Virus record (IMG/VR): IMGVR_UViG_3300032296_000923
Coordinates: 1-27,721 of that record
Origin: a virus
Reading direction: 5' to 3' (one strand)
DNA length: 27,721 nt
The translations under genes and the position numbers were made by a program. Positions 21,367 to 27,721 of the stretch are shown here, one piece after another (the first letter of the stretch is position 1; each line of letters opens with the position of its first letter). The notes under the pieces were generated by a model that was not told the origin of the DNA, searched no databases, and saw nothing but the letters and a program-made list of their open reading frames with translations.

Positions 21367-21828
21367 ATGACGCAAGATGGTTCACCCAAATATTGGCTAA
21401 GGCGCAACTTCAACGAGGCTCTCTGCCTGTCTGATGAGGCTGTCGACTGGCTGATCTCCCTTTGGGAAGTCATTCAACTATTCGATGACATAGTTGATGG
21501 CGATGCAATTGATCGAGACGATGTTGACGCGGTAATCTGGAATGCCTTGGTCGGAATGCCTGCAAATGCTTTCTATCAGCGCAATGCCCATGTTCTCATC
21601 CCCCTGATGAGCGTTGCGGTGCTGAAGTGGAAAGCATCGGATCAGGTCGAACGTGACGGCGGTGCGTGCGCCACAAGCTTCGTCTGGCGTGCTGGTTATT
21701 ATGATATTGTCCTGGCTGTCGTGCAGATCGAACATGGTGTGCAGGCAGCGATGGACATTGGCCCCGTTGTCCTAAATTTGTATGGCGAAAGCCTTGAGGA
21801 ATATATGAAGGAAATGTCTGATGCCTGA
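21367..21828 (+). CDS. Helical phage protein with DDxxD-like motif, 153 aa
   Basis: A fully helical protein with SLWEVIQLFDDIVDGDAIDRDDVDAVIW (about 31-58) and FVWRAGYYDIVLAVVQIEHG (about 105-124). FDDIVDGD (39-46) copies the DDxxD metal motif of isoprenoid synthases, but the protein is half their length and has no second acidic motif of the usual form. Its place just before the gp7-like ejection gene corresponds to P22 gene 14, an assembly factor of similar size. AAAGGGG precedes the ATG. A chaperone or assembly role is the more likely reading; an enzyme is possible but unsupported. Confidence 0.7.
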   Translation: MTQDGSPKYWLRRNFNEALCLSDEAVDWLISLWEVIQLFDDIVDGDAIDRDDVDAVIWNALVGMPANAFYQRNAHVLIPLMSVAVLKWKASDQVERDGGACATSFVWRAGYYDIVLAVVQIEHGVQAAMDIGPVVLNLYGESLEEYMKEMSDA

Positions 21829-22432
21829 TCCAGTAACCGGCATTGGTGCCGCTGTTAGCGTTGGCGGCTCGTTGCTTAAAGGCAAGGCTGCAAACAAAGC
21901 AGGCCAGCTTCAGTATGACGCCTCGATGGCTGGCGTTGCTGAAACCCGCGCAGCACGCGAAGAAACCCGCAAACTGCTTGAACCCTATGTCGCAGCCGGT
22001 GGACCCGCATTGCAACAGCAGATGGCTGCACTAGGTTTGTCAGGTGCTGAAGCGCAACAGCAGTATGTTGCCCAACAGGAACAAAGCCCGTTGTTTCAGG
22101 CATTGGCCCAACAGCAAGAACAAGCGATGCTGCAAAACGCATCTGCAACTGGTGGGCTTCGCGGCGGAAATATCCAAGGTGCATTAGCCCAGTTCCGTCC
22201 GCAGCTTTTGAATCAGTTCCTCGAACAGCAATATGAGCGCCTAGGTGGAATGACTGGCCTTGGTCAACGTTCTGCGGCTGGCGTTGGCGCGGCTGGAATG
22301 GAATCAGCAACTAGCATCGCTGAATTGCTTGGTCAGGGCGGCGCCGCAAGGGCTGGTTCGGCTTTGGCTAAGGGCCAGATGTTTGGCGATATACTCGGTT
22401 CTGCGGGTGGTGTTCTGAAAGCGGCGTTCTAA
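21821..22432 (+). CDS. Ejection (DNA transfer) protein, P22 gp7-like
   Basis: 203 residues, Gln/Ala/Gly-rich, with a hydrophobic start (DPVTGIGAAVSVGGSLLKGKAANKAG) and a helical core (REETRKLLEPYVAAGGPALQQQMAALGLSG, QQYERLGGMTGLGQRSAAGVG). Such composition and the gp7-type QQYERLGGMTGLGQ block occur in internal virion proteins that leave the capsid with the DNA and help it cross the cell envelope. It is the first of the ejection genes and overlaps the previous gene by eight bases. Confidence 0.82.
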   Translation: MPDPVTGIGAAVSVGGSLLKGKAANKAGQLQYDASMAGVAETRAAREETRKLLEPYVAAGGPALQQQMAALGLSGAEAQQQYVAQQEQSPLFQALAQQQEQAMLQNASATGGLRGGNIQGALAQFRPQLLNQFLEQQYERLGGMTGLGQRSAAGVGAAGMESATSIAELLGQGGAARAGSALAKGQMFGDILGSAGGVLKAAF

Positions 22433-23316
22433 TGGTTCAACCTATCAATTACGCACAGCTTGCCGGTGGCTTTCAGTCACCGCAGGAGGCGTTTACAAAC
22501 ACGATCAAGCTGCGCGAATATTATTTGCAGCAGCAGAAGGCGGCAGAAGATGCGCGTCTAGCTAAAGAGAAAGCCACTCAAATGGAGGCTGATCTTAAGG
22601 ACTATACGACTGCGCCAACACCTCAGAAGCTGGCTAACCTGCATTTGCGTTATCCCGCGCTCAAAGAAAGCCTAAACGCCTACACGCAGACGCTTTCAGA
22701 CGCTGACAAGAAAACAACCACAGAGTTTGCCACACAGGCATTCGGTCTAAACCGCGCTGGCAAGACTGATCAGGTGCTGGGGCTGTTTGATACATACATC
22801 AAGGCCGCGACTGATAGCGGTCGATCCGATATGGCGCGAGTTCTGACGGATTCTAAAAACACGTTTTCTACGATTGCCGATCCGAAAGCCCGCGAGGCTT
22901 TGATCGGCTCTGTTCTCGCTGGAACCGGCAAAGACGGGCTAGACCTTTACGACAAGATTTGGAATGCTCAGGACAATATTGAATTGACGTCTTTCCAAAA
23001 AGACTTAGCGGCGGGCGGCATTGATCCAAACAGTGAAGAGGGGCGCAGAAAAGCTCGTCAATTTGCTGAGCTAAAAATTGATCCGCTTGTCGAAATGGAA
23101 ACGCCTTCAGGCGGAAAGTTTGTTGGGCGCGAGTCTGTTTATTTCGACACCTATGGTGGCGGCGCTGAAAAGCCCCAGCCCAAATCATTGCCCAAGGTTG
23201 GTGAAGTGCGCGGCGGATATAAGTTCACAGGCGGCGATCCATCCGATAAATCAAACTGGGTAAAAGTTGAAGGAGGTCAGACGGAAAAGCCGTCTGGCAC
23301 CTTTCAAGGGCAGTAA
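22432..23316 (+). CDS. Ejection/internal virion protein, P22 gp20-like position, 294 aa
   Basis: Begins MVQPINYAQLAGGFQSPQEAFTN and continues as a long charged helical region (LREYYLQQQKAAEDARLAKEKATQMEADL), typical of internal ejection proteins; the C-terminal part (about 210-294) is more extended and Gly/Pro-rich (GGYKFTGGDPSDKSNWVKVEGG). By place it equals P22 gp20, but it is shorter (471 in P22). Its last 17 codons contain a strong Shine-Dalgarno and hairpin, and the M15-like frame overlaps it in the +1 frame, so it may end in a frameshifted fusion. Confidence 0.78.
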   Translation: MVQPINYAQLAGGFQSPQEAFTNTIKLREYYLQQQKAAEDARLAKEKATQMEADLKDYTTAPTPQKLANLHLRYPALKESLNAYTQTLSDADKKTTTEFATQAFGLNRAGKTDQVLGLFDTYIKAATDSGRSDMARVLTDSKNTFSTIADPKAREALIGSVLAGTGKDGLDLYDKIWNAQDNIELTSFQKDLAAGGIDPNSEEGRRKARQFAELKIDPLVEMETPSGGKFVGRESVYFDTYGGGAEKPQPKSLPKVGEVRGGYKFTGGDPSDKSNWVKVEGGQTEKPSGTFQGQ

Positions 23317-23626
23317 CATAAATCCTTTGGTTGATCTTGGCAGGCTTGGATTCATTCCAACCAGCGGATTCAGAACGCCAAAGCATCAAGCCGCGTTGGC
23401 TGCTCAAGGTATGACGAAAACAAAAGGCGGGTCGCACCCAAAGGGTGATGCGCTGGACTTCATGCCGCCCAGAGGAATGTCAATGCAGCAGGCTATTGCC
23501 ACCGTGCAGCAGATGTATCCCGGCGCAAAGGCGATCCCTAGCAATAAGGGCGCAATTCATGTAACCTTCCCCGGATGGGGCAAGGCACCAGATGTAAGCG
23601 GTTCTGTCCGCAGGTATGGGGAATAA
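23267..23626 (+). CDS. M15-type peptidase-like protein (endolysin-like), up to 119 aa
   Basis: Core motifs of a small D-Ala-D-Ala / M15 peptidase are visible (numbering from TTG 23267): SGFRTPKHQ (33-41), SHPKGDALDF with zinc ligands His57 and Asp64 (56-65, the SxHxxGxAxD box), and AIHVTF with His98. Such enzymes cut peptide cross-links in peptidoglycan. The start is unclear: TTG 23267 and TTG 23327 lack proper ribosome-binding sites, and the likely domain start (NINPLVDLGRLGF) precedes any good start codon. It overlaps the gp20-like gene by 50 bases in the +1 frame; frameshift fusion is one explanation. It lies in the ejection cluster, so wall digestion during DNA entry is likelier than lysis. 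Confidence 0.75.
   Translation: MKEVRRKSRLAPFKGSNINPLVDLGRLGFIPTSGFRTPKHQAALAAQGMTKTKGGSHPKGDALDFMPPRGMSMQQAIATVQQMYPGAKAIPSNKGAIHVTFPGWGKAPDVSGSVRRYGE
23270..23298 (+). promoter_or_regulatory. Internal Shine-Dalgarno followed by a perfect hairpin
   Basis: AAGGAGGT (23270-23277) is directly followed by CAGACGG (23278-23284), a five-base AAAAG loop, and CCGTCTG (23290-23296); G-C and U-G pairs extend the stem to nine. No start codon follows at a normal spacing. A ribosome-pausing element of this form stimulates frameshifting in other genes, so it may act on reading frame or on internal initiation of the M15-like frame. Confidence 0.55.
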
Positions 23627-23627
23627 A

Positions 23628-26600
23628 ATGGCTCAAGAAGCGAAGCCTTGGGAAGAATTTCAGCCAACTCAGCCTGTTGCCGGGCAGGGCGTTGTTATTC
23701 CAAAAGCTGGCCCTACTGAACGCGAAATTGCGGCTGAACAGCGGGCGCAATCTGCTGAACAGCGGGCATCTGCATCTGCCCAGCGTGAGGCTATTAAGTT
23801 CGAGCAAGAACAGGCTGAAGGTGGCGGCGCAAAGCCGACCGAGGCACAGCAAAAGACACTGACCCTTCTGACTCGTATTTCGGGAGGCCAGAAAGACATT
23901 CAAAGTGCTTTGGCGCTTGATCCTGAGGCGCAAAGGGCGGGATTATTTGAAACGCTCTCTCGCAATGTATTGGGTGAAGGCGTTGTAACCCGCGGCGTGG
24001 CAGGTCCAGAACGTCGAATGGTAACGGACGCTCAGGCAGACATTCTTGATGCGCTTTTGACCCTTGGCACGGGCGCTGCTTACAGCCGTGAGCAGTTGAT
24101 CGGCCAGACCATTTCTTATTTCCCGCAGTACGGAGATACTGAGGCTGAAATTAACGCCAAGAACGAGCGACTGAAGCGCCTAACCGAATCTGCGCGTATT
24201 GCGACTGGACCGCTGTCTAAAAAGTTTGATGAAGTTATTGTCCCTCTCATTGGTGGGGCGGCACCCGATCAAGTAACCGACAAGGCTAGTCAGCTTCAAG
24301 AGGCCCTTAACAGCGGCGCCACTCTTGAACAATTGAACACGCTTGCTGGCACGCTTGGCATCACGCCAAATCAGGCAGATCTTGTGGAAGCAATTAAGTT
24401 CCGCGATGCCGGTGGCGTTGGTGCAAGAATCCTTCCGCCCGAAGCTGGTGCTGCGCCTGAAGAGACTGGCTTTCTAGAAGGCATCATCGAAACCGTAACC
24501 GGCTCTGAACGCAGCACGCCAGAGATCGAAGCGTTGCCTGAATGGACAACGATGCCGGAACTGAACGAGCTTTCCCTCGCTGGTGCTGCAACCGGCATTG
24601 GAACCATGTTCACCAGTCCCGAAGAATCGGTGCAGATCATCAGGTCCAATTATCCCGGCGTGCAAGTGCGTCAGGATTCCAAGGGCAACTATATTCTGCG
24701 CTCACAGGATGGGCGCGAGTATGGCATTAAGCCAGGCTTTCGCTGGAGCGATGTTCCGCGTGCGTTGGGTGGTATCCTTGCGTTTACTCCCGCTGGGCGC
24801 GCTGCAACCGTCTCTGGCGCTGCTGGCGGCTCTGCGCTTACTCAGGCTGGCATTGAGGCAACACAGGCCGCAACTGGTGGCACGTTTAACACTGGCGAGA
24901 TCGCTATTGCTGGTGGCGCTGGTGCTGCCGGTAAGGTTATTGAACCGATAATTCCCGCCGCCATATCTGCTGTTCGTGGATTGCGTCGCGGCCCCGAAGT
25001 CCCACTTCCAACGCCTGCTGCACCACCCGCTAGGATGGCTCAGGCTGCGATCCCCGAAGCTCCAATCGCTCCAGTTCAGCCCGCGCCGATTGCGCCTGCT
25101 GCGGCTCCTATGGCTACACCTGAAGCCGCCGCTGAACTTGGGACAATCATTCGTCAAGCATCTGCTGCGGATGCAAAAGCTAAAGGCGCACAGATTAAGT
25201 TGGCCGAAATGGCGCAGGTCAATCCTGAAGCAAGGGCTGCTGCTGAACGCCTTGGCATTGACGTTCCTGCTGATGTGTTTTCGGACAACCCGCAGGTTCG
25301 CGCTGCCGTTGGCCTAACTCGGTCTCTTGCCGGAAGTGAAGCCGAGGCAGCTTGGCGCAATTCAGTATCGGCAGCGGTTGATCAGGCTGACAACATCCTG
25401 CGCGAATTTGACGCTCAGTTCATTGAAGGCGCAATCGCTCCTGGCGTTGTATCACAGCGGGTTAAGGATAGCCTCACGGGAACACGCGCATCTTTGAACA
25501 AAGAAGCAAGCGACATTTACAAGCAGGTTGATGCCGCTGTTCCTAAGCAAACACCCGTCCAAATGGACAATCTGTTTAGGGAACTGAACTTGATTGCTGG
25601 CGAAGTTGGTGAAAGCGGAATGACGGCGCAGGAAAAGCGCCTGATGAGCCTTATCCAAAGCGGAGAGGCTGCTGGTGGCGATATTACCTATGGCCGGTTG
25701 ATCCGCGAAAAGAATCTGATCGGCAAAGCGTTGAAGCGTGAAGAGTCGCCTTATGGTTCGTTGGATGAGGCAACGCTCAAGCGTTTGTATGGCGCACTTG
25801 CAACCGATCAGTTGGATAATGTTGGTCGCATTGCTGGCGAGGAAGTCCGCAGCCAATTGCGCGGCGCTAATCTGATTTATGCCAAAGAACGCGCTCTTGG
25901 TGATCGCATCGTCAACGCTTTCGGTCGAGATCTTGAAGGTGGCATCGCAAACAAGATGCGTGCCGCAATCACTAGCGGTGCGAAGGGTGATGCAGGCGAC
26001 TTTGTACGCTTGATGAAAACCGTTCCAAAAGATTTGCAGCGTGAGGTTGTGGCGACGGCTCTTGGCTCAGTGTCTCGATCTGCACGCGGCGCTGAAAAGG
26101 GCGGCTTCGGATTTTCGGAATTTGCTGATCTTTATCCCAAGCTTCGCGCCAATCCGACTGTTTACAAGCAGATCGTGGAAACACTTGGCCCGAAAGCATC
26201 TGACACGCTTCGTGATTTGTATCAGGTGTCAAAGCGCATCACCGAAGCCCGTGCCAACGTTCTGACCACTGGAAAGGCGAACCAGGCGCTCGTTGAGTCG
26301 CTAAACGCTGAAGGCATTGTCACGCGCATAATGGATAGCACTATGGCTAAGCGTGCCGTCGGTGCTGCTGCTGGCATGGCTGGTCCGCTTGCGGGTGCTG
26401 TTATGCCTGATATTATGCAAGCGATGGCAAAGGGCAATCCTGATGCAATCCGCGCTGCTGGCAAGATGTTTAGTAGCCCCGAATTTCAGGTGCTTTTGAC
26501 GGAAGCCGCAACGCAGCCCAAAATTGCAGATCGAGCAATTAACCGCGTCGCAGCGTCTGCCCGATTCCGTGACTTTGCCAAAACAATTGGCTTGGACATG

Positions 26601-26714
26601 AAAAACGCGAAGACTTGGCTGCGATCAGCGACGGCTCCTGCGGCTGTCGCACAAGGCGAACAAGCACCTATGACAGAAACCGGCGGAGCGCCTGTTGTGC
26701 GTATTCAGCAATGA
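23628..26714 (+). CDS. Large ejection/internal virion protein, P22 gp16-like position, 1028 aa
   Basis: ATG 23628 with GGGGA five bases upstream is preferred; an earlier in-frame ATG at 23616 would add four residues. Residues about 1-85 are Glu/Gln/Ala-rich helices. A Gly/Ala hydrophobic region lies near 385-445 and a Pro/Ala-rich linker near 455-505, with helical Ala/Arg/Lys domains after that. A Gly/Ala/Met hydrophobic segment (AVGAAAGMAGPLAGAVMPDIM) is close to the C-terminus. This fits a protein stored in the head and injected to form a membrane channel. No transglycosylase motif is seen. It is much longer than P22 gp16 (609) and may combine several ejection functions. Confidence 0.8.
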   Translation: MAQEAKPWEEFQPTQPVAGQGVVIPKAGPTEREIAAEQRAQSAEQRASASAQREAIKFEQEQAEGGGAKPTEAQQKTLTLLTRISGGQKDIQSALALDPEAQRAGLFETLSRNVLGEGVVTRGVAGPERRMVTDAQADILDALLTLGTGAAYSREQLIGQTISYFPQYGDTEAEINAKNERLKRLTESARIATGPLSKKFDEVIVPLIGGAAPDQVTDKASQLQEALNSGATLEQLNTLAGTLGITPNQADLVEAIKFRDAGGVGARILPPEAGAAPEETGFLEGIIETVTGSERSTPEIEALPEWTTMPELNELSLAGAATGIGTMFTSPEESVQIIRSNYPGVQVRQDSKGNYILRSQDGREYGIKPGFRWSDVPRALGGILAFTPAGRAATVSGAAGGSALTQAGIEATQAATGGTFNTGEIAIAGGAGAAGKVIEPIIPAAISAVRGLRRGPEVPLPTPAAPPARMAQAAIPEAPIAPVQPAPIAPAAAPMATPEAAAELGTIIRQASAADAKAKGAQIKLAEMAQVNPEARAAAERLGIDVPADVFSDNPQVRAAVGLTRSLAGSEAEAAWRNSVSAAVDQADNILREFDAQFIEGAIAPGVVSQRVKDSLTGTRASLNKEASDIYKQVDAAVPKQTPVQMDNLFRELNLIAGEVGESGMTAQEKRLMSLIQSGEAAGGDITYGRLIREKNLIGKALKREESPYGSLDEATLKRLYGALATDQLDNVGRIAGEEVRSQLRGANLIYAKERALGDRIVNAFGRDLEGGIANKMRAAITSGAKGDAGDFVRLMKTVPKDLQREVVATALGSVSRSARGAEKGGFGFSEFADLYPKLRANPTVYKQIVETLGPKASDTLRDLYQVSKRITEARANVLTTGKANQALVESLNAEGIVTRIMDSTMAKRAVGAAAGMAGPLAGAVMPDIMQAMAKGNPDAIRAAGKMFSSPEFQVLLTEAATQPKIADRAINRVAASARFRDFAKTIGLDMKNAKTWLRSATAPAAVAQGEQAPMTETGGAPVVRIQQ

Positions 26715-26766: not shown

Positions 26767-27721
26767 ATGGCGTTAACTCAGGTCACTGGGCCTTATCCTA
26801 TTTTCACCGACCTTGACGGAACGCCGCTTGATGACGGCTATCTGTATATCGGGGAAATAAACGAAGACCCCGAAACAAATCCGATTCAGGTCTATTGGGA
26901 CAGCGCGTTAACAATCGTTGCAACCCAGCCGATCCGCACGAATAGCGGTTATGCCTATCGCAATGGTTCGCCTGCTTTGCTTTACACTGCTGGCGAGTTC
27001 TCGATCACCATCCGCAACAAGCGCCAGGAGTTCGTTCTATACAGCCCTGTAGGCTATGGCTTTGACCCTGCGGCGGTCTCTGCGTCTGTGGTCAAGAACG
27101 ACTTTGTTGGCGATGGCGTTGAAGTGGACTTCGCGCTTTCCGCTTCGCCTAGCACTATCCTTGCAACGAACATCTTCGTAAACGGGGTGTATCAGGAAAA
27201 GGACAGCTACACACTGCTTGGCAATGTCATCACGTTCTCAATTGCCCCTCCGCTGAATAGCAGCATTGAGATCATGACGAACGAAACCGGCGTGATTAAT
27301 TCGGGTAACGCTTCCGCGATTAGCTACACGCTGACAGCTTCTGGCGCCGTCGCACAGACCGTTCAGACCAAGCTGGAGCAATATGTCTCGGTCAAGGACT
27401 TCGGCGCTGTTGGCGACGGGGTGACGGACGATACCGTGGCCCTTAAAGCTGCATTTGATTACGCAATCCCACTCACCATTCCTGTAGAGTTAGAAGGTAC
27501 TTATCTCGTCACGGGGCCGATCCAGCCTTATGCGTCCCGCGCTTCAGGCTCTGCGCATATTATCTGCAAAGGCCACGTAACTATTAACGTAAGCGGAGGC
27601 GCCACGGCGTTTCGGGATTTGTTTTACCTTGAGACGACGGCGTCCAATAACTGCTCGATCACAGGCGGGTCGCTGACTATAAACTGCAACAGCAAAGCCG
27701 CCAGCGCAATTACGTTCCGCC
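26767..27721 (+). CDS. Tailspike with P22 head-binding domain and beta-helix, cut by window end
   Basis: Only the first 318 codons are visible; the frame is open to the end. Residues 1-110 (VTGPYPIFTDLDGTPLDDG, YIGEINEDPETNPIQVYW, IRTNSGYAYRNGSPALLY) match the head-binding domain of P22 gp9, which attaches to the gp4/gp10 hub. A second small domain (about 115-175, VKNDFVGDGVEVDFALSAS...NIFVNGVYQE) follows, and VKDFGAVGDGVTDDTVAL (about 209-226) opens a Pectate_lyase_3-type beta-helix, where glycan-binding or depolymerase activity resides. AAGGAG is eight bases upstream. Substrate and catalytic residues lie beyond the window. Confidence 0.92.
   Translation, partial: MALTQVTGPYPIFTDLDGTPLDDGYLYIGEINEDPETNPIQVYWDSALTIVATQPIRTNSGYAYRNGSPALLYTAGEFSITIRNKRQEFVLYSPVGYGFDPAAVSASVVKNDFVGDGVEVDFALSASPSTILATNIFVNGVYQEKDSYTLLGNVITFSIAPPLNSSIEIMTNETGVINSGNASAISYTLTASGAVAQTVQTKLEQYVSVKDFGAVGDGVTDDTVALKAAFDYAIPLTIPVELEGTYLVTGPIQPYASRASGSAHIICKGHVTINVSGGATAFRDLFYLETTASNNCSITGGSLTINCNSKAASAITFR

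Follow-up and report, generated by a model that had tools for sequence, protein, structure and literature searches.

A conserved Shine-Dalgarno, hairpin and UUU-Y element suggests programmed +1 frameshifting between phage ejection proteins and peptidoglycan hydrolases

The ejection protein gene described here very probably undergoes programmed +1 frameshifting, in which tRNA-Phe would slip from UUU to UUC at positions 23302-23305, stimulated by a Shine-Dalgarno (SD) sequence and a hairpin on the 5' side, so that a part of the ejection protein copies would gain a peptidoglycan hydrolase domain. The DNA stretch that was analysed, termed the window in the following, is 27,721 nucleotides long and comprises positions 1 to 27,721 of the IMG/VR virus record IMGVR_UViG_3300032296_000923. 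A comparison with related loci reveals a conserved +1 relation of the two reading frames, a covarying hairpin, a conserved SD sequence together with UUU-Y, unrelated hydrolases that follow the same element, and natural single-frame fusions. The relevant features of the window are the following:

21821-22432, plus strand: neighbouring gene, gp7-like DNA ejection protein (phrog_598 'DNA ejection', E 1.3e-30)
22432-23316, plus strand: 0-frame ORF, 294 aa, the unshifted product, a probable ejection (internal virion) protein in the position of P22 gp20
23272-23277, plus strand: GGAGGT, internal SD-like sequence, codon aligned (GGA GGT), conserved in about 171 of 176 +1 loci
23278-23296, plus strand: perfect 7-bp hairpin CAGACGG-AAAAG-CCGTCTG, stem covarying across relatives
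23297-23301, plus strand: 5-nt spacer GCACC between hairpin and shift codon, constant at 4-6 nt across families
23302-23305, plus strand: UUU-C, candidate slip site for the P-site tRNA-Phe from UUU to UUC (+1); TTTC in 170 and TTTT in 6 of 176 loci
23306-23626, plus strand: +1-frame extension, M15-type metallopeptidase, 106 aa plus stop
23314-23316, plus strand: 0-frame stop TAA, separated from UUU by the three codons CAA GGG CAG
23616-26714, plus strand: neighbouring gene, large protein of 1032 aa in the position of P22 gp16 (phrog_6704, E 1.2e-53)

The 0-frame ORF ends with EKPSGTFQGQ and the TAA stop, while the M15 frame, which is +1 relative to it, is open to 23626; the predicted fusion (22432-23304 plus 23306-23626) has 397 aa. 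For the relative L052, the predicted sizes of the two forms are about 187 and 293 residues. No strong family match of its own was found for the 0-frame ORF, the gp20 family included, and a relative of this ORF weakly matches phrog_917 ('released from the phage upon host infection', 1.7e-4). It lies between the gp7-like gene and the large protein, a position that fits P22 gp20, and its product is probably an ejection (internal virion) protein. The M15 domain is absent from MW202867, the nearest annotated phage. The window contains no tRNA gene. Near its end, the DNA of region 27385-27460 is about 80% identical to that of unrelated phages of Escherichia and Synechococcus. This region codes for the common tail-spike motif VKDFGAVGDGVTDDT, whose frame runs off the window end.

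As to the letters of the putative signal, AAGGAGGT is located at 23270-23277, the hairpin arms occupy 23278-23284 and 23290-23296, and the stem can be extended to 9 bp by T23277.G23297 and G23276-C23298. A GGG-C follows at 23308-23311. The ORF end, the hairpin, UUU-C and GGG-C, from which the original prediction had been built, are thus all in place. A CM of the element finds a single match in the window (23272-23305, 43.6 bits), which is partly by construction, as the building set includes the window's own element; the same search found no second copy elsewhere in the window, and Rfam contains no match to the element. An intrinsic terminator was considered and, on inspection, rejected, because downstream of the hairpin come 5 nt and then only three T. 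A pairing of the SD region with the CCUUUC of the slip site, possible in the window, was likewise dropped, as most relatives have AAC or GGN before UUU.

Relatives were collected by several routes. A protein search with the M15 ORF as sole query, which is blind to the element, yielded 52 viral loci, and in every one of them a long ORF precedes the domain, which is in +1 relation to it. All 52 likewise have GGAGGY, followed by a hairpin (7 to 9 bp), a short spacer and TTTY, and their 0-frame stop lies no more than 5 codons past TTT; the same scan of the plus strand detected no second such element in these loci. A DNA pattern of the commonest stem found 102 elements, each of them lying in the reading frame of the upstream ORF. 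Domain-based scans resulted, after dereplication, in 191 loci, comprising 176 +1 loci with the element, six -1 loci, eight in-frame loci and one stand-alone ORF. As the 176 consist of 171 strict loci (defined by TTTY, GGAGG and the hairpin) and five that were assigned by inspection, and as all 176 were classified with UUU-Y as a criterion, the fair denominator is that of all domain loci, i.e. 176/191, and these comparative data support the +1 frameshift between an ejection protein and an M15 peptidase that had originally been predicted. The typical +1 locus has a codon-aligned GGA-GGN, a hairpin of 7-9 bp, 4-6 nt, and UUU-Y, and its 0-frame stop usually comes 1-5 codons on. By single linkage, 171 of the 176 upstream proteins fall into one loose family, which means that we deal with one gene position with exchangeable tails and not with many unrelated genes.

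The exchangeable tails belong to several domain types. The element precedes M15-A (the type of the window), M15-B (without Pfam match and called M15 only by its TSGYRGP...H...D motif), Peptidase_M15_3 (PF08291, E 4e-9) and SLT transglycosylase domains (PF01464, E down to 7e-10). Prophages of cultured Sphingomonadales carry the element; the arrangement is present in Pelagerythrobacter marinus (NZ_WTYO01000001.1) and in two further genomes of its order. It is also found in the IMG/VR records L307, L308, L324, L355 and L361, whose numbers resemble those of isolate genomes. Among 50,697 annotated phage records, tblastn gave no match for the M15-A or M15_3 domains. An RNA-model search of 385 class-level genomes found nothing but is uninformative, since it also missed the known positive G001, which has the other hairpin class; an M15_3 search of 385 class-level genomes was likewise empty. 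At one +1 locus (L362, around 3001), GAGG stands in place of GGAGG, followed by a hairpin with a UCCG loop and by TTT-TGA. Two contigs, IMGVR_UViG_3300042314_000177 (L282, L033) and IMGVR_UViG_3300035670_000305 (L044, L223), each contain two different cassettes that are tens of kb apart, with flanks that are only about 80-90% alike in part; either the assembly joined two phages or there is a real double set.

The geometry of the element is nearly fixed. Among the 171 strict loci, GGAGG and TTT are 30 nt apart in 148 cases, 33 nt in 17, 27 nt in five and 36 nt in one, so the alternative distances differ by whole codons. Two hairpin classes can be distinguished, namely class I with 7-8 bp and a 5-nt loop, and class II with 8 bp and a 4-nt loop that is mostly GNAA. 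On dereplicated subsets and for the named structure, 96.1% of the cells of the class I stem are paired, with changes on both sides in 6 of 7 pairs, and 99.4% of those of the class II stem, with changes on both sides in 8 of 8 pairs. The covariation scores are 0.797 versus 0.183 shuffled and at most 0.171 slid for class I, and 0.811 versus 0.389 shuffled and at most 0.299 slid for class II; these scores derive from related sequences, and the shuffle control does not represent a probability. RNAalifold recovers the same stem unaided. As the stem-encoded peptide varies (e.g. GGQTEKPSGTF, GGTSGNAGGTF and GGPTQPASGGF), protein conservation does not account for the pairing. Codon choice at the site points to selection as well: GGAGG encodes Gly-Gly in about 171 of 176 loci, whereas elsewhere in these ORFs it does so for 5.8% of the Gly-Gly pairs, and UUU-Y encodes Phe in 176 of 176, compared with 14% of the Phe codons of the same ORFs. 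Conserved GGAGG and the covarying stem agree with the SD sequence and hairpin being stimulators, as had been suggested, and we therefore regard them as putative stimulators. Substitutions at codon positions 1/2/3 amount to 2615/2029/9217 in the +1 frame of the M15-A domain and to 115/85/378 in the 0 frame of the upstream ORF, a pattern which indicates that both frames are protein-coding and that the domain evolves as a protein in the +1 frame under strong purifying selection. Three marks of programmed +1 frameshifting, i.e. overlapping frames in a conserved +1 relation with coding selection in both, a conserved slip-prone site and a conserved putative cis stimulator, are hence found here.

Where would the ribosome shift? 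The closest of the last domain-frame stops is at -17 (L334), and UUU is directly followed by the 0-frame stop (UUU-UAA/UGA) in six loci, which confines the shift, if one common site is assumed, to about -14 to +3 around TTT. Within this range only TTTY is invariant, and both TTTC (170 loci) and TTTT (six loci) allow the cognate tRNA-Phe to re-pair one base further on. The original prediction had offered UUU-C and GGG-C as shift sites, and only the former has held up, with UUU-Y in 176 of 176 loci. At GGG-C (23308-23311), re-pairing would be possible in the window, but in the six loci with UAA or UGA right after UUU the ribosome meets the stop ahead of any GGG, and the M15-B, M15_3 and SLT families have no GGG there, so GGG-C is excluded as common site and a +1 shift at this position is extremely unlikely. 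In most loci, the A-site codon after UUU-C is a sense codon (CAA, CGC or CCC) and not a stop.

The assignment of the +1 domain to the M15 / hedgehog-DD-peptidase fold is based on motif and structure comparison. H44, D51 and H85, the zinc ligands H, D and H of an SxHxxGxAxD-like motif, are invariant in 22 relatives. The AF2 model of the M15 domain has a pLDDT of 92, and its best VIA-align matches are LysECD7 (Z 7.3), ChiX (6.9), LysB4 (6.1), the Zn DD-peptidase (6.0) and Ply500 (5.9); although the scores are moderate, all five top fold matches are M15-type wall enzymes, and the modelled domain is accordingly an M15-type fold. In Pfam, the domain of the window remains below the M15 cut-off, and the relative L052 lies at the PF08291 (M15_3) cut-off.

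What alternatives exist for a frameshift? The hydrolase could be a separate gene that uses its own, possibly non-AUG start, with GGAGG as its Shine-Dalgarno sequence and with the hairpin looping out the gap, and the initiation region of T4 gene 25/38 is of this type. Such an arrangement would profit from the effective spacing of 5-6 nt that GGAGG and the hairpin provide to UUU, a TTG is present in the M15 frame of the window at 23267, and in one relative (L349) the domain is indeed a stand-alone ORF with its own ATG. The earlier statement that the M15 frame has no usable start therefore needs to be qualified: the TTG exists, but it is neither preceded by an SD nor conserved, and no other start codon is conserved at the right place either. 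In 26 of 176 loci, there is no ATG, GTG or TTG at all in the possible start stretch, which begins at the last domain-frame stop and ends 8 codons after UUU, and UUU is, to our knowledge, not a known start codon. Furthermore, the upstream ORF in every case reads through the element, the frame offset is nearly always the one that a +1 slip would repair, and natural in-frame fusions exist. Non-canonical initiation, which had also been considered at the outset, is for these reasons improbable.

The other non-frameshift readings fare worse. One may regard the element as a conserved DNA linker that serves the swapping of hydrolase modules by homologous recombination, the frame offset being incidental. 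This would agree with the divergence of the sequence on both sides at the element borders and with the fact that different domain types have the element in common, and the element may additionally act as such a linker. As sole explanation it is very improbable, since the stem sequence changes with pairing kept, which a homology linker would not need, and since an incidental offset would not result in +1 in 176 of 182 out-of-frame overlapping loci. A sequencing or assembly indel, or a decayed gene, could explain any single locus taken alone, and an indel had been named as another possible reading of the window. With 176 dereplicated loci from many samples and several cultured genomes, including prophages of cultured bacteria, the indel is excluded, and the strong purifying selection that acts on the +1-frame domain speaks against decay, which leaves a practically negligible probability for this explanation.

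Programmed +1 frameshifting thus being the preferred reading, a mechanism can be proposed that would make use of all conserved parts. Ribosomes that translate the ejection protein gene would traverse GGAGG and the hairpin, and the hairpin would refold behind the ribosome, with its 3' foot about 5 nt upstream of the P-site UUU. GGAGG, which the looping-out of the hairpin would bring to a distance of only 5-6 nt from UUU, could then pair with the anti-SD of the 16S rRNA, and the refolded stem together with this pairing would draw the mRNA by one base, whereupon tRNA-Phe would re-pair from UUU to UUC (or UUU). Shifted ribosomes would enter the hydrolase domain, and the others would terminate 1-5 codons on. 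Ejection proteins that bear a C-terminal peptidoglycan hydrolase would then be mixed with others that lack it, presumably since the virion requires the enzyme on only some copies to open the cell wall during DNA injection. The occurrence of frameshifting, its efficiency, the physical pull with the SD step, and the incorporation of the fusion protein into virions are inferred.

How does this compare to known systems? Release factor 2 (prfB) has in common that the P-site tRNA slips by +1 and that an internal SD lies upstream. The prfB SD is 3 nt away. In the system described here, the slip site is UUU-Y, the A-site codon is mostly a sense codon, GGAGG ends 25 nt upstream of TTT and a conserved hairpin lies in between, whereas prfB has CUU_UGA_C with a stop in the A site, an SD close upstream and no hairpin (PMC5009743, PMC3711429), so that the window does not contain a prfB-type signal. 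In E. coli, UUU_U is reported to be much less shift-prone than CUU_U (PMC5009743), and together with the sense A-site codon in most loci this implies that the stimulator must be strong. According to one study, -1 frameshifting is attenuated, and +1 frameshifting stimulated, by a hairpin that lies immediately 5' of a slip site, the +1 result having been obtained in yeast and not in bacteria (PMC3639245). The upstream hairpin of SARS-CoV and the synthetic 6BPGC hairpin in yeast likewise refold at about 4-5 nt on the 5' side of the shift site, but the +1 test was synthetic, no natural +1 use is described there, and there is no SD (PMC3639245). T4 gene 60 bypassing resembles our system in that a 5' stem-loop and an SD-like sequence act from the mRNA exit side; it differs in that a long coding gap separates the matched GGA codons for take-off and landing, while here the shift would be by one base without a gap. 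The dnaX gene also has an internal SD stimulator, and its truncation by shifting follows the same logic as the in-frame relatives described below; it shifts by -1 at A_AAA_AAG with a 3' stem-loop and an SD 10 nt upstream. In phage tail assembly chaperones (G/GT type), a -1 frameshift sets the ratio of short and C-terminally extended forms. These chaperones have in common with our proposed system that a phage structural gene is frameshifted, and they differ in direction, gene, slip site and signals; the window, with its +1 relation, is not a -1 site of the X_XXY_YYZ type known from dnaX and tail chaperones. Peptidoglycan hydrolases on ejection proteins are known from T7 gp16 and K1E gp35, in which a single frame places the enzyme on every copy (PMC8954989). 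While programmed +1 frameshifting itself is known, the SD-hairpin-UUUY architecture, the gene and the modular use appear to be new, and no earlier description of this signal was found in the open-access literature.

The loci that deviate from +1 bear on the mechanism. Six -1 loci and eight in-frame loci demonstrate that the +1 arrangement is not obligatory, and with these eight of 191 loci the single-frame fusions that a frameshift had led one to look for do exist. The six -1 loci (L221, L315, L316, L317, L354 and L356, a small sample of which some members are related) each have the heptamer C_CCU_UUC in the 0 frame, and their hairpins are weak (-3.2 to -6.0 kcal/mol versus a median of -12.25 kcal/mol in +1 loci), which fits the finding that an upstream hairpin suppresses -1 and stimulates +1 frameshifting (PMC3639245). 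They possibly represent a natural reversal of the frameshift direction. The in-frame fusions L318, L319, L314/L132 and L357 have kept a perfect hairpin and TTTY, and a +1 stop follows 2-3 codons on, so that a shift would truncate and not extend these four proteins; in three of the four, the coding sequences that follow TTT are homologous, and their +1 stops are hence not independent. On balance, we consider it likely, with some reserve, that the SD-hairpin-UUUY module is a portable, structure-based frame switch at the joint, by which phages of Sphingomonadales and their relatives dose different cell-wall hydrolases on ejection proteins, and that the switch can be inverted (the four in-frame fusions with hairpin and UUU-Y) or reversed to -1 by loss of the hairpin and gain of C_CCU_UUC.

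If true, this would be, as far as could be searched, the first natural 5' hairpin that drives bacterial +1 frameshifting. That upstream hairpins can stimulate +1 shifts is known mainly through synthetic tests, and their working was called 'still mysterious' in a 2016 review (PMC5009743). With more than 100 natural sequence variants of fixed geometry plus -1 and in-frame counterparts, the mechanism is directly testable. Phages may in this way tune the fraction of injected proteins that bear a wall-cutting enzyme, and such hydrolases will probably be overlooked or annotated as stray ORFs. In L314/L132 and L303, the linker of the ejection protein and the M15_3 domain are separated by an additional conserved module (DGSISTVRS...).
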